Below are positions 3,841 through 7,743 of a DNA stretch of 7,743 nucleotides, piece by piece. A program made the position numbers and the translations under genes. Source of the DNA: Candidatus Syntropharchaeum sp. GTDB lineage: Archaea; Halobacteriota; Syntropharchaeia; Alkanophagales; Methanospirareceae. Where the stretch lies: positions 1-7,743 of the forward strand of contig JADHYP010000064.1 of assembly GCA_016782355.1 (NCBI GenBank). The letters run 5' to 3'. Every line of letters begins with the position of its first letter. The stretch's first letter is position 1. The notes under the pieces are model-generated. The model had not been told where the DNA came from, ran no database searches, and saw only the letters and a list, made by a program, of their open reading frames with translations.

Positions 3841-4152
3841 ATGCGAGAATTGAAATGGCAAAGAATGGAAATGAGAGCGGGGAATTGCCCAATTTGTGGT
3901 AGAGATATATGCCATTATATCAGTTATACTGCGCTTGCAGTGAAGAGAATAGCGGCGGGTAGGGGATTAAAGTTGGAGAAACATGGCGCTATATGGTCTT
4001 TCGTGAGCAGGCTTTCGAGGGAGAGCAGGGATAATGAGCTTATTCTACTTTTTCACGCGGCAAATGGATTACATAAAAACTTCTACGAAAATGAACCGGA
4101 CCGAAAAGCGGTAGAAATTTGTTTGGAATCGTATCGTGTAGTACAAAAATAG
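3841..4152 (+). pseudogene. Chimeric half-copy of a PaREP1-family gene with a Cys-rich N-terminus
   Basis: 103 aa. Residues about 29-96 (TALAVKRIAAGRGLKLEKH through AANGLHKNFYEN) align without gaps to the C-terminal two thirds of the PaREP1 protein at 4879-5367, and the DNA is also clearly similar there. The N-terminal PaREP1 part (ALPQ..., the Yxx-AKELL helix and the EKFWGAS motif) is missing. Instead there is an unrelated 28-residue stretch with CPICGRDIC, a possible rubredoxin-knuckle-like Cys cluster. The homology break is sharp at about 3925. The frame upstream is closed by a TAA at 3826-3828, so this is not just a misplaced start. The last 14 codons lie in the 74-bp repeat shared with 7670-7743. 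Probably a recombination product; whether it is expressed is unknown. Confidence 0.6.
4109..4126 (+). repeat. 18-bp exact repeat, copy 1 (also at 4796-4813)
   Basis: CGGTAGAAATTTGTTTGG occurs identically at 4796-4813 and with two changes at 7669-7686. Here it is read as (A)VEICL; at the other sites it is read as VGRNLFG in another frame. The conservation is therefore of DNA, not protein. Confidence 0.9.
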
Positions 4153-4183
4153 AGAAGAATATATAAAAGTAAAAGACATAACT
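4110..4183 (+). repeat. 74-bp direct repeat, copy A
   Basis: Matches 7670-7743 base for base at a constant offset of 3560, with three mismatches (4121, 4130, 4165). It covers the end of the chimeric PaREP1 ORF, its stop codon, and the TATA box of the gene starting at 4202. Copy B reaches the window edge, so the repeat may be longer. Confidence 0.95.
4158..4169 (+). promoter_or_regulatory. TATA box carried inside repeat A
   Basis: AATATATAAAAG is a good archaeal TATA element about 36-40 nt upstream of the ATG at 4202, giving a predicted leader of roughly 12-15 nt. The same element is in repeat B (7718-7729), just before the window ends, so another gene probably starts shortly downstream. Confidence 0.6.
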
Positions 4184-4201
4184 ATTATAAGTGGTAGAAA
4201 A

Positions 4202-4878: not shown

Positions 4879-5367
4879 ATGGGTGCTGCTTCTATCGCAT
4901 TGCCGCAAAGGCTTGTGGTGAAATTAAGGGAAAAAGCAGAGGAAACTGATTCACTGCCAGAGGAATTAGGGGTTGAGCTACTGCAAAAGAGTTTGAATGA
5001 AGAGCTTGACCCGGAAGAACTTGTAGAACATTATCAATCAATGAGCGAGAAATATCTTGCCGAGGCGAAAGAACTTTTAAGTGAAGGAGATGTAGCACAA
5101 GCATCGGAAAAGTTTTGGGGCGCATCTGCACTTGCAGTGAAGAGAGTGGCGGCGAGCAGAGGACTGAAGTTGGAAAAACACAGAGGTTTGTGGGATTTTG
5201 TGAATGAACTTTTGAAAGAGAGCGGAGATAGAGACATTATTAGATTTTTTAATGCTGCGAACAGCTTACATAGAAATTTCTATGAAGACCAGATGAGCAA
5301 AGAGTCGTTGGAAATCGTGGCAGAAGATATTGAGCAGTTAATAGAAAAATTGAGGATGATTTCGTGA
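4879..5367 (+). CDS. PaREP1-family (HEPN-like helical) protein
   Basis: 162 aa, full family length. A short N-terminal segment (IALPQRLVVKLREKAEE, about 6-22) is followed by a DPEEL/Y-x-x linker, the helix YLAEAKELLSEGDVAQASEK, then the family signature EKFWGASALAVKRVAASRG, the H-x-x-L-W region (KLEKHRGLWDFV) and the closing AANSLHRNFYED. This matches the archaeal PaREP1/PaREP8 family, first seen as multicopy genes in Pyrobaculum and related to HEPN-type helical bundles. The biochemical role is not established; HEPN relatives are often RNases or nucleotide-binding modules. GGAGGAG at 4860-4866 serves as the ribosome binding site. Its stop overlaps the next start (TGATG), so it is translationally coupled to the DUF2283 gene. 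A degenerate partial copy lies at 3841-4152. Confidence 0.85.
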   Translation: MGAASIALPQRLVVKLREKAEETDSLPEELGVELLQKSLNEELDPEELVEHYQSMSEKYLAEAKELLSEGDVAQASEKFWGASALAVKRVAASRGLKLEKHRGLWDFVNELLKESGDRDIIRFFNAANSLHRNFYEDQMSKESLEIVAEDIEQLIEKLRMIS

Positions 5368-5597: not shown

Positions 5598-5708
5598 ATG
5601 AAGAAGATTAATCTGGTGTTTGTTTTGGCGATTGCATTTGCTTTGTTCGTTTGCGCGAGTGGGGTTGCTAGTGCGAAGACGAAACAAATATATATGCGAA
5701 AAACTTAA
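5598..5708 (+). CDS. Signal-peptide mini-gene, intronless copy
   Basis: 36 codons, not conserved with any family I recognise. It encodes a textbook Sec signal peptide: basic start MKKIN, a hydrophobic core (LVFVLAIAFALFVCA) and a likely cleavage site after VASA. Only about 10 residues remain (KTKQIYMRKT). It begins three bases after the DUF2283 stop. The copy at 6122-6918 has the same length after intron removal. Differences are synonymous or hydrophobic-for-hydrophobic in the core, plus one R/P change in the tail. It is either a real tiny secreted peptide or the 5' stump of a larger secreted protein that now works as an upstream leader carrying the next gene's promoter. Confidence 0.55.
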   Translation: MKKINLVFVLAIAFALFVCASGVASAKTKQIYMRKT

Positions 5709-5740
5709 ACACGATATAGGCGATAAAATTGAGAAAGAAG
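5604..5740 (+). repeat. 137-bp direct repeat, copy 1 (mini-gene plus promoter)
   Basis: Aligns without gaps to 6814-6950 (offset 1210) with about 11 mismatches. It contains nearly all of the mini-gene and the TATA-containing region ahead of the next gene, ending at about the start of that gene. Confidence 0.95.
5682..5695 (+). promoter_or_regulatory. TATA/BRE-like promoter inside repeat copy 1
   Basis: AAACAAATATATATG lies about 50 nt upstream of the ATG at 5742, within the coding part of the mini-gene. The preceding CGAAAC is BRE-like. It predicts a transcript start near 5715-5720 for the HEPN-like gene. The same element precedes the DUF5678 gene at 6892-6905. Confidence 0.5.
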
Positions 5741-5741
5741 A

Positions 5742-6125
5742 ATGAGCGAAGAGCAGTTGCATTTGGAAGATGCGAAGAAGTTGTATCAAAAAGCGGTTGA
5801 GGAGTTTGAAATAGCGAGGGGGAAGTATGACCGTGTTTTTCTGTGCGATGTTTGTGCAAAGGGTTGGCTTTCTGCAATAGAAGCCACTTACGCACTCTTG
5901 CTCAAAAAAGGAGTAAAAGAAGAGGAGTTGCACAGAACAGATTGGGGGAGAAGATACATGGTGCACAGATATGCGGAGAAGGAGCTTGAATGGTTATATT
6001 TTTCGCTACGGGATAACCTGCATATAGAATGCTATTATGAGCGGGCATTGGATTTCGATGAGGTTCAGATACGATTGGATGACCTCAAATATTACATTGA
6101 GAAGATTGAAGAGGTAAGGGGATGA
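5742..6125 (+). CDS. HEPN-like helical protein
   Basis: 127 aa, all-helical pattern: an N-terminal amphipathic helix (LEDAKKLYQKAVEEFEIARG), then a central SAIEATYALLLKKG helix, RTDWGRRYMVHRYAEKELEWL, RDNLHIECYYE and a final DDLKYYIEKIEE helix. The arrangement resembles archaeal HEPN/PaREP1/DUF5618-type bundles. The expected RNase motif R-x4-6-H is not exact: RDNLH gives R-x3-H, while RYMVHRYAEKE offers another R/H pair. Catalysis is therefore uncertain. It has its own promoter in the repeat upstream. Its stop codon TGA (6123-6125) overlaps the ATG at 6122-6124 of the second mini-gene, and the group II intron begins on the very next base. The intron's presumed IBS1/IBS2 target lies in this gene's last codons. 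Confidence 0.6.
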   Translation: MSEEQLHLEDAKKLYQKAVEEFEIARGKYDRVFLCDVCAKGWLSAIEATYALLLKKGVKEEELHRTDWGRRYMVHRYAEKELEWLYFSLRDNLHIECYYERALDFDEVQIRLDDLKYYIEKIEEVRG

Positions 6126-6918
6126 GTGTGCCGAGCAAAATTCATAATAGCCAGTTGGTGAAAATCCAACCTGAGGAAAGGTTAGCCGCCACCTCAGAAC
6201 TGAACCTTGCATTCTGTCCGGTGACAGGCAGTGGTGAAGCCAAGGGGATGGGATACTGGGCTGCAACGCAAGTGAAGGGATTGAGCCCCGAAATACACGT
6301 TGTCTCGGTGGTCGACGTTGTTCATTTGACGGAAGACAGCACTCTCACCGCCGTTAGTCCGAACCTCCGGTCTTGGAATATAGCAGGGAGCGCTGGAACA
6401 TGGCGAGGCGATGAGAGCCCGACGGGGTCTGAGACCGTGGCACGGTATCAAATGGATGTTGTGGGAACTCGGGAGAGCCAGAGTGTTCTCTTTACTGGAG
6501 TATGTAATGTCAAGCCTATAAACGGTAAGATATTACAGATGACACCCTGGGGGTCGGACCAGCTCATAGTACCGATGAAGCAGGGTAATGCCTATGGAGG
6601 GAAGGGGCTGTCGGTTGAACCGTTGGGTCAGGGACACATCCACCGCACAAAGAGGCGGGTTAAGGATGGTAACAAAACTGGACTCATAACCTATCTCGAA
6701 AATGGTAGGGAGGTTCTTCTGAAGAGCCGGATGAGGGAAAACCTCAAGTCCGGTTCTGTGAGGGGGCTCATAGCAGCTTCCGGGAGGAGGTGGCTATGAG
6801 CTCTACTCGACAAAAGATTAATCTGGTGTTTGTTTTGGTGATTGCGCTTGCTTTGTTCGTTTGCGCGAGTGGAGTTGTGAGTGCGAAGACGAAACAAATA
6901 TATATGCCAAAAACTTAA
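6122..6918 (+). CDS. Signal-peptide mini-gene, copy split by a group II intron: join(6122..6125, 6812..6918)
   Basis: Joining ATGA (6122-6125) to AAAAGATTAATC (from 6812) gives ATG AAA AAG ATT AAT, that is MKKIN, exactly as in the copy at 5598. The joined ORF is 111 nt including the stop, identical in length to the other copy. It has the same signal-peptide design (core LVFVLVIALALFVCA, cleavage site VVSA) and tail KTKQIYMPKT. Without splicing, an in-frame ATG at 6796 inside intron domain VI could still give a 40-residue version beginning MSSTRQ, which keeps the hydrophobic core. Start and stop of the upstream gene overlap (ATGA), so translation is probably coupled. Confidence 0.7.
6724..6756 (+). 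ncRNA. Group II intron domain V
   Basis: A 33-nt hairpin: GAGCCGGA pairs with TCCGGTTC, a 2-nt AG bulge follows, and TGAGG/CCTCA forms the distal stem with loop GAAAA. The catalytic triad AGC is at 6725-6727. Position and fold match the most conserved element of group II ribozymes. Confidence 0.92.
6760..6808 (+). ncRNA. Group II intron domain VI with branch-point A6805
   Basis: GAG(6760-6762)/CTC(6806-6808) and GGGG(6763-6766)/CTCT(6801-6804) flank a single bulged A at 6805. Above them the stem CTCATAGC/GCTATGAG and a CTTCC-ggga-GGAGG cap close the hairpin. A6805 is the seventh base from the intron end, the canonical lariat position. A 3-nt joiner separates it from domain V. Confidence 0.9.
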
Positions 6919-6950
6919 ACAGGATATAGGCGATAAAAATGAGAGAAGAC
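6814..6950 (+). repeat. 137-bp direct repeat, copy 2
   Basis: Second copy of 5604-5740. It lies immediately 3' of the intron and ends within the first codons of the DUF5678 gene. In this copy the base change T to A at 6939 creates the ATG used as that gene's start. Confidence 0.95.
6892..6905 (+). promoter_or_regulatory. TATA/BRE-like promoter inside repeat copy 2
   Basis: Identical element to 5682-5695, about 35-45 nt upstream of the ATG at 6939. It predicts a short leader for the DUF5678 / retropepsin-like operon. Confidence 0.5.
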
Positions 6951-7133
6951 TATGAGTGGTTCATAAAGACGGATTTTAGTAAATATGCGGGAAAATGGAT
7001 TGCAACGATAGGTAAAAAGGTCGTGGCAGAGGGAGACGATGCAGAAGTAGTTTATAAAGAAGCAAAGGATAAATATCCGGGTAAGAAGCCATCATTGGCT
7101 AAAATACCGACTGGGGATACTCTGATATTATGA
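6939..7133 (+). CDS. DUF5678 family small protein
   Basis: 64 aa. The sequence runs FIKTDFSKYAGKWIATIG, then KKVVAEGDDAEVVYKEAKDK, then a proline/lysine-rich end KYPGKKPSLAKIPTGDTLIL. This is the DUF5678 pattern (Y-x-G-K-W-[IV]-A, then V-[AV]-x-G, then a helix with K-x-[YH]-P). The function of the family is unknown. In archaea these short ORFs often sit directly before small aspartyl-protease-like genes, as here: the stop overlaps the next start as ATGA (7130-7133). The promoter and the start codon context come from the 137-bp repeat. Confidence 0.8.
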   Translation: MREDYEWFIKTDFSKYAGKWIATIGKKVVAEGDDAEVVYKEAKDKYPGKKPSLAKIPTGDTLIL

Positions 7134-7546
7134 CCATAGAGTTCAGATACCGTGAGGAAGAATCGGAAATAACCGGAACGATACTTCGTCCGGTTGCAGC
7201 TCTGGAATTCAAGAGCAGGAGCGGCGAATGGATTGAAATACGCATGTATATTGATTCCGGAGCAGATATGACTTTAATACCTCTCTCTTTTGGCAGATTG
7301 CTTGGTTTGGAGCTGAGAAAGGAGGATATTAAACATCTTCGTGGCGTGGGTGGTGGAGAGGTGCCGGTGATCGTTGCAAGGGTAGATATTAGGATGGATG
7401 ATGTTGAATTTCCAATTGACGTTGCATGGGCACTTGAAGAGGATGTTCCACCTTTGCTTGGGAGAACCGATATATTTGATAGATTTAAGATTATGTTTAA
7501 TCAAGGTTCGCGGAGTATTATATTTGAGGAGTCGAACAAAACATAG
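7130..7546 (+). CDS. Retropepsin-like aspartyl protease-fold protein
   Basis: 138 aa, beta-rich, no signal peptide. Active-site motif Y40-I-D42-S-G-A-D46 followed by MTLIP matches the D-[ST]-G-A loop of retropepsin-like (single-lobe) proteases. GVGGGEVPV (72-80) could be the flap region, and VPPLLGRTDIFDRFKIMF (106-123) matches the hydrophobic-hydrophobic-G-[RN] second motif. Length fits a one-lobe enzyme that must dimerise. The gene is coupled to the DUF5678 gene by a 4-nt overlap, which may provide a partner or substrate. Proteolytic activity is inferred from the motif; the physiological target is unknown. Stop TAG at 7544-7546. Confidence 0.8.
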   Translation: MTIEFRYREEESEITGTILRPVAALEFKSRSGEWIEIRMYIDSGADMTLIPLSFGRLLGLELRKEDIKHLRGVGGGEVPVIVARVDIRMDDVEFPIDVAWALEEDVPPLLGRTDIFDRFKIMFNQGSRSIIFEESNKT

Positions 7547-7555
7547 GTGATTAAA

Positions 7556-7732
7556 ATGGAAGAATTTGCGGTATTTAAAAGCATGGAGAATGACTTAGAA
7601 GAGAAACATCCGCATAAAGTTGTCGCAATTCATAAGGGAAAAATCATTTCAAAGAAATTTGAGATTGTGGGTAGAAATTTATTTGGAATTGTATCGTGTA
7701 GTACAAAAATAGAGAAGAATATATTAAAGTAA
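7556..7732 (+). pseudogene. DUF5678-like N-terminus fused to repeat sequence (chimeric ORF)
   Basis: 58 aa from the ATG at 7556, chosen because AGGTGA (7545-7550) is an appropriately spaced ribosome binding site. The GTG at 7547 lies inside that site. Residues 1-35 (MEEFAVFKSMENDLEEKHPH, then KVVAIHKGKIISKKF) resemble the first half of DUF5678-type proteins, with the usual V-A-I-H-x-G-K core. From about 7669 the DNA switches to the 74-bp repeat and is read in a frame different from the PaREP1 copy (VGRNLFGIVSCSTKIEKNILK would be the new tail), so the C-terminus is not the original one. Probably a recombination-truncated gene; it could still be translated after the retropepsin-like gene. Confidence 0.6.
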
Positions 7733-7743
7733 AAGACATAACT
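7670..7743 (+). repeat. 74-bp direct repeat, copy B (runs to window edge)
   Basis: Matches 4110-4183 with three mismatches. It includes a TATA element (7718-7729) without its downstream gene, which must lie beyond the window. Confidence 0.95.

Follow-up and report, generated by a model that had tools for sequence, protein, structure and literature searches.

A group II intron inserted one base downstream of a start codon in a methane-oxidising archaeon, and a putative substitute start in its domain VI

The general view of group II introns in bacteria and archaea is that they limit the harm they cause by splicing or by landing outside genes. In yeast mitochondria, translation of the open reading frames (ORFs) of introns aI1 and aI2 enters in frame from the preceding exon and runs across the 5' domains of the ribozyme; these introns lie inside cox1, not at a start codon, and are not known to have a substitute start in domain VI (D6). 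The groEL intron of Azotobacter vinelandii also sits at a translation signal, in that case the stop codon of a single gene. Here we describe a group II intron inserted at a start codon on contig JADHYP010000064.1 of Candidatus Syntropharchaeum sp. (assembly GCA_016782355.1), together with the family to which it belongs. The window, that is, the whole stretch of 7,743 nucleotides analysed, is one entire 7.7-kb contig of a 1.0-Mb genome that is 61% complete.

Three other systems resemble this locus in single traits. The likeness of C.te.I1 of Clostridium tetani lies in its prominent unspliced RNA, which is the main transcript at about 75-95% (PMC3919590). C.te.I1 differs in belonging to class B, in having no intron-encoded protein (IEP), in the shift of its 5' splice site, by which coding frames are joined, and in four alternative 3' ends; neither start-codon targeting nor a stop-free ribozyme frame is described in the passages on it (PMC3919590). 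UA.I6-UA.I8 are likewise group II introns from uncultured ANME-1 archaea, and the passage on them gives IEP similarities only (PMC7923331). The TeI3 introns of Thermosynechococcus elongatus lack a reverse transcriptase (RT), are mobilised in trans, and in some cases lie between two start codons of another intron's ORF; they differ in that this site belongs to an intron ORF, not to host gene starts, and the sections consulted do not mention a substitute start (PMC2882425). A literature search confined largely to titles and abstracts found no paper describing group II introns that target start codons and carry a substitute start in D6.

Positions 6126-6811 of the window are a genuine group II intron, predicted to be self-splicing, and its host is a methane-oxidising archaeon. 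From the sequences of its relatives, we consider it probable that the family targets ATGA, often at translation starts, and that a spare Shine-Dalgarno (SD) motif and start codon in D6 let the interrupted gene be translated whether spliced or unspliced. Among the Rfam models, RF02005 (D1-D4-6) matched 6161-6437 (119.3 bits, E 3.9e-34, cut-off 49) and RF00029 (D5-D6) matched 6722-6811 (53.6 bits, E 1.2e-8, cut-off 40). The initial annotation had placed a group II intron one base 3' of a start codon, with domain V (D5) at 6724-6756 and a 3' end at 6811; both matches bear this out, and the second stops precisely at that end. The intron ends, D5, D6, and bulged A of that annotation were also consistent: D5-D6 folds at z = -8.1, the copy has the GUGYG 5' end and AY 3' end (GTGTG..GAC), and A6805 is unpaired. 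The window copy has no RT/maturase in D4; RT-less group II introns are a known form.

Excision of 6126-6811 in silico joined ATGA to AAAAGATTAATCTGG, while an intronless repeat at 5598, called a mini-gene in the initial annotation, reads ATGAAGAAGATTAATCTGG. As had been stated there, removal of the intron gives a start like that of the mini-gene with one synonymous change (AAG/AAA), the insertion splits codon 2, and ATGA is also the stop of the upstream gene. The same annotation regarded this repeat as proof of the splice sites. The boundaries were right, and they are fixed independently in the family alignment by copies with identical 5' ends (GTGTGCCGAG..) and 3' ends (..CTACTCGAC) in differing flanks; the repeat alone is no proof of the 5' splice site because 5' of the intron the common bases extend little beyond ATGA.

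From the loci examined (designated by L numbers), 79 distinct 5' junctions were read. An xTGA site occurs at 38 of them (34 ATGA, 3 GTGA, and 1 TTGA); the remaining junctions either fall into other subfamilies (GAGTG ends at a variety of sites; GCGTG ends that follow ..CAG; and a CCAA type) or are single or decayed sites. The loop read as exon-binding site 1 (EBS1), which pairs with intron-binding site 1 (IBS1), covaries with the site: UCAUGU accompanies ACATGA, UCAUAG accompanies CTATGA, CUGUGU accompanies ..CACAG, and UUGGUU accompanies ..CCAA. For the 30 of 79 copies whose loop matched a pattern, pairing with the own site averaged 4.62 of 6 vs 3.08 with permuted sites, and 0 of 10,000 permutations scored as high; the window copy reaches 5.0 of 6, including two G-U pairs. 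All 11 copies with a UCAU EBS1 lie at [AGT]TGA (10) or ATGG (1). This covariation shows ATGA to be recognised by EBS1 UCAU, in terms of predicted pairing. SD-like motifs stand 5' of 12 of the 38 xTGA sites (9 strong), compared with 12.7% (4.1% strong) of 6,653 ATGA occurrences in the same loci, a background pool in which genuine starts and loci that overlap are also counted; L119-L121 represent a single homologous site. A candidate EBS2-IBS2 region was inspected, and no pairing was established. Recognition of the SD motif via EBS2 was considered when ACCTCC was spotted near 6365, yet no pairing could be established. As a separate observation, nine of the 38 xTGA sites (L015, L023, L025, L026, L031, L106, L109, L111, and L117) have a flank like GAAAACCGAAGCGACTATGA; copies with this flank are mostly decayed.

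In D6, a second ATGA lies 16 bases 5' of the intron end, behind GGAGGTG. A stop and a start share ATGA, the overlap typical of translational coupling, at both 6122-6125 and 6796-6799. The unspliced frame from the D6 ATG reads MSSTRQKINLV.., the same frame as that of the spliced start, because in both cases one base of the codon precedes the junction. The initial annotation had held that the start of the mini-gene works only after splicing; the intron's own in-frame SD motif (6786-6792) and ATG (6796-6798) speak against this. At 60 of the 62 3' junctions listed, the D6 ATG and the spliced start are in the same phase, the exceptions being L136 (at 1044, without ATG) and L082 (one base short). 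ATGA is read at 49 of the 62 and ATGG at most others, all tails being of common descent. The D5-D6 fold places the SD motif and AUG within the D6 hairpin, where ATGAG pairs with CTCAT; the apical part of D6 varies among tails, and most ATGA-type ones keep AGGAGGTGG(G)CTATGAG. For comparison, 24 archaeal introns with a short D5-D6 (70-78 nucleotides vs 90-104 here) were inspected, of which 7 were unreadable; an SD motif followed by ATG in D6 was found in 0 of the 17 readable ones. In L008, L090, and L146, another copy of the final 8-23 bases of an intron tail stands after the tail, which would fit insertion of one intron into domain VI of another, or recombination with it, the ATGA there being itself a suitable target.

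Downstream frames were compared at 50 of the 62 3' junctions, after those with less than 300 bases of room or with the same first 14 exon bases had been dropped. The longest downstream frame was the D6-ATG frame in 18 of 32 distinct ATGA-type tails (one third expected, p 0.006) and in 2 of 11 and 2 of 7 control tails; among ORFs of 100 or more codons, 9 of 12 lay in the D6-ATG frame (p 0.004), two PorB-like cases being orthologues, and both p-values are optimistic given that the copies are related. Downstream products matched PEMT/ICMT, Csm5, MTHFR, and a cohesin domain. A SufC-like ABC ATPase scored 207.5 bits, slightly under the 212.8 of TIGR01978, and a thiamine pyrophosphate (TPP) enzyme was nearest to the PorB models, below their cut-offs.

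The remnants show the tail as the apparent start of a gene. In L027, half of D5 plus D6 are all that remain 5' of the PorB-like gene, with no Rfam match left; the gene reads MNSTRQIGPIKSIKDLP.., its first codons lying within the intron tail. No ATG, GTG, or TTG was found between this tail and the conserved TPTCAGCGG, and the sole alternative start nearby is a GTG two codons earlier, likewise in the tail. In its orthologue L107, 74 nucleotides from the 5' end of the intron remain, along with a foreign insert and D6 but no D5, and the gene reads MNSTREIDSIK... On the minus strand of L107 (about 2000-2400), between the intron 5' remnant and domain VI, lies an ORF that by eye resembles a small nucleotidyltransferase. 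When 11 of 12 close PorB-like orthologues were compared (L173 did not match the motif), 8 lacked a tail; the corresponding place in L165 and L166 reads ATGGAGATAGAG.., and L167 has upstream sequence in common with L027 and no SD-ATG tail. L132, L134, and L104 have no D1 match, keep D5-D6, and have a gene in frame after the tail, although L132 and L134 each have an ATG further downstream that could be the start instead; L025 and L114 are remnants without a D1 match and without a long ORF in the D6-ATG frame. Trans-splicing of split introns is conceivable for remnants that keep D5-D6, but hardly for L027 or L107.

The frame that enters the intron from the exon ATG (F0) is stop-free until the TGA of the D6 ATGA, while the other two frames of the window copy hold 17 and 14 stops. 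The same genome contains one further intron copy (C16:6853-8819), with an RT in D4 (372 bits against TIGR04416, cut-off 300) and 87% identity to the window intron over intron positions 1-565 and 83% over 580-686; its matching frame is open for 652 codons across D1-D3, RT, D5, and D6 to the equivalent TGA. Gained stops were counted by a tree-based reconstruction of changes in which substitutions were reshuffled per branch, so that substitutions and not frameshifts are counted; the window itself is F0-stop-free, which is handled by reconstructing changes on the tree. The sample covered 53 of the 79 5' junctions (28+9+16), the others having fewer than 390 aligned positions. Among 23 copies with an identity of 82% or more to the window, F0 gained 8 stops vs 26.8 expected (0 of 300 replicates as low), with 28 vs 30.6 in F1 and 22 vs 24.3 in F2; in the 28 copies of the 77% set, F0 gained 12 vs 41.8. 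Copies entered both sets for their similarity to the window, a criterion that favours intact ones, and not for their frame. A clear F0 depletion was absent from the nine copies of the GCGTG subfamily (8 vs 11.4), which include one ATGA-site copy (L075), and from decayed copies (63 vs 73.5). Intact copies avoid stops, and they do so specifically in F0.

In our proposal, EBS1 (UCAU) pairs with the ATGA of the host site, as the covariation shows, and the D6 AUGA behind GGAGGTG would substitute as a start in the phase of the interrupted one, a use suggested by the remnants. Ribosomes that begin at the host ATG would cross the ribozyme without meeting a stop, terminate at the UGA overlapping the D6 AUG, and restart there, opening the predicted hairpin in which the SD motif and AUG are paired; in RT-bearing copies, the RT would also be produced by this crossing, as a fusion. 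The original start would be recovered by splicing. Once the catalytic core is lost, the tail may stay as the new start and N-terminus of the gene, as the sequences of the PorB-like genes suggest. To move, the RT-less window copy would need an RT acting in trans, for example the one encoded by the C16 copy.

Several observations weigh against this proposal. Ribosomes crossing the ribozyme should disturb its folding. L084 (ATGA with CGUUUU) and L009 (GGGGGG with UUGGUU) are EBS1 misfits, L007 and L014 resemble stop-codon insertions, and 26 of the 38 xTGA sites have no SD-like motif. The D6 ATGA is also present in subfamilies with other targets, and 14 of 32 ATGA-type tails do not favour the start frame, which rules out that every ATGA site is a gene start; the relatedness of the copies counts here as well. 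Just 10 of the 37 xTGA copies with 520 or more nucleotides after the junction are stop-free in F0, and while most of the closed ones are truncated or decayed, L034 (85% identical), L015 (one stop), and L084 (frameshift) are neither. Finally, in the 19 of 79 copies selected for an open F0, there is no excess at third codon positions (0.136, 0.127, and 0.111 for positions one to three). Together with the lack of a Pfam match of the 225-residue frame, this rules out that F0 codes for a conserved protein. Stop avoidance without a difference between codon positions therefore indicates that readability is kept, not encoded content.

A readable frame could also be under selection for the sake of the RT or because it avoids polarity. 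The best surviving alternative, which we nevertheless judge unlikely, is that the frame is open for RT expression only. On this view, translation of the RT would begin at the host start or at an ATG where the intron begins, much as in exon-fused mitochondrial intron ORFs, and the D6 start would be incidental. The way the RT is started agrees with it. In the GCGTG subfamily, where F0 is closed, GAGGTGGG..ATG stands directly 5' of the RT in 6 of 6 RT copies, whereas the 9 other RT copies, with a frame open or once open, have only GTG and no clear SD motif; in five of these the frame extends 167-196 codons upstream, in L002 and L047 it runs to the edge of the available sequence, and in L015 and L020 it stops at 47 and 29 codons. 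Moreover, 7 of 12 GAGTG-type 5' ends have TAA directly followed by an in-frame ATG (2 have TAA-CTG and 3 neither). However, RT-less copies also avoid F0 stops: 0 vs 11.8 expected in 8 copies with the frameshifted L071 excluded, 1 vs 14.7 with it, and 0 vs 5.4 (5 of 1000) in five that have one common D4 deletion. Stop avoidance in RT-less copies therefore favours coupling or polarity over the RT alone, and the starts of the PorB-like remnants within the D6 tail are also difficult to reconcile with an incidental D6 start.

It is quite improbable that the D6 ATGA and SD motif are structural parts of the hairpin, with start use in remnants accidental and ATGA one EBS1 choice among several. The ATGAG-CTCAT pairing, kept in subfamilies with other targets, and the many sites without an SD-like motif would fit such an account; against it, the D6 apex differs by lineage while the AGGAGGTGG-type motif is mostly kept, the downstream frame bias is confined to ATGA-type tails, stop depletion is frame-specific, and strong SD motifs are enriched at the sites over the ATGA background. 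That the intron acts as a switch, as initially annotated, keeping the downstream gene off until it splices, would suit the split codon 2 and the pairing of SD motif and AUG in folded D6, but it is highly improbable, as an in-frame SD-ATG at the intron 3' end runs directly into the exon and core-less, apparently unspliceable remnants in relatives keep this start in front of genes.

More broadly, and with the balance tipping only slightly in favour, start codons may be the niche of this retroelement: found by EBS1, readable as an operon cistron, and given back when broken. The decayed tail would then serve genes such as PorB as a portable ribosome-binding site plus N-terminus (M-[S/N]-S-T-R), and a mobile intron would be rewriting translation starts in ANME-1. 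The proposal suggests a third way of limiting harm, in which an intron hits start codons and supplies a spare, so that the host gene survives without splicing. The family offers a testable case of translation through a ribozyme, as well as sequence fossils in which intron ends have apparently turned into the starts of metabolic genes. It also calls for caution, as gene callers may annotate D1-D3 of such introns as proteins.

The intron family is multicopy. Most of its named relatives (33 loci) belong to ANME-1/Methanophagales, several of the contigs carry bacterial labels, and intron DNA was matched in 35 of 51 genomes of the same family. ATGA-type copies occur on contigs labelled Dehalococcoidia, 'bacterium', and Elusimicrobia (L064, L070, L071, and L073), L070 preceding MTHFR; either cross-domain transfer or mis-binning would account for these labels. 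Spread via viruses or plasmids was considered and set aside: exact patterns searched in viral_contigs gave 0 matches for the tail and 2 contigs for the 5' pattern, and the 15 plasmid records that matched did so over only 6-9% of the query.

Table 1. Positions of the intron, its putative signals, and adjoining features in the window.
Feature	Position	Strand	Remark
Intronless paralogous repeat of 3' exon	5598..5740	+	
Upstream ORF, 127 aa	5742..6125	+	TGA stop 6123-6125 overlaps ATG 6122-6124
GAGGT, SD-like	6111..6115	+	Six bases 5' of ATG at 6122
IBS1 GGATGA	6120-6125	+	Pairs with EBS1
ATGA, host start codon and one further base, ending the 5' exon	6122..6125	+	Last four bases of IBS1
Open frame F0, host ATG through intron	6122..6799	+	225 codons plus stop
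Group II intron	6126..6811	+	686 nt, no RT gene, GTGTG...CTCGAC
Domain I and start of D2-D4 basal part	6161..6437	+	RF02005 match
EBS1 UCAUUU	6322..6327	+	Pairs with GGATGA, two G-U; covariation over 30 copies
Domain V including flanking bases	6722..6757	+	RF00029 match, fold
Domain VI, enlarged hairpin, SD and AUG paired within	6759..6809	+	RF00029 match, fold
GGAGGTG, putative SD inside domain VI	6786..6792	+	
ATGA, putative substitute start	6796..6799	+	Start codon 6796-6798 overlapping stop TGA 6797-6799
ORF from D6 start	6796..6918	+	MSSTRQKINLVFVLVIALALFVCASGVVSAKTKQIYMPKT
Bulged A, presumed branch point	6805	+	Unpaired in D6 fold
3' exon	6812..6918	+	Signal-peptide remnant into promoter-like region of DUF5678 gene at 6939

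The signal peptide of the mini-gene runs on into a 525-codon secreted protein in a relative (L036), while in the window it is broken off into the promoter-like region of the DUF5678 gene. The window copy thus probably precedes a remnant, and the biological interpretation draws on the family instead; with the mini-gene truncated, it is unlikely to be regulated as a working gene. The upstream ORF had no match in Pfam or NCBIfam. Near the intron lie two PaREP1 family proteins and one aspartyl-protease-like protein (3841-4149, 4879-5364, and 7130-7543). A direct repeat, ggaatcgtatcgtgtagtacaaaaatagagaagaatat.., occurs at 4125-4195 and 7680-7743 and spans a gene end and the next promoter-like stretch. 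At 17-1058 there is a broken ISL3-like transposase (NF033550, 22.6 bits, far under the cut-off).
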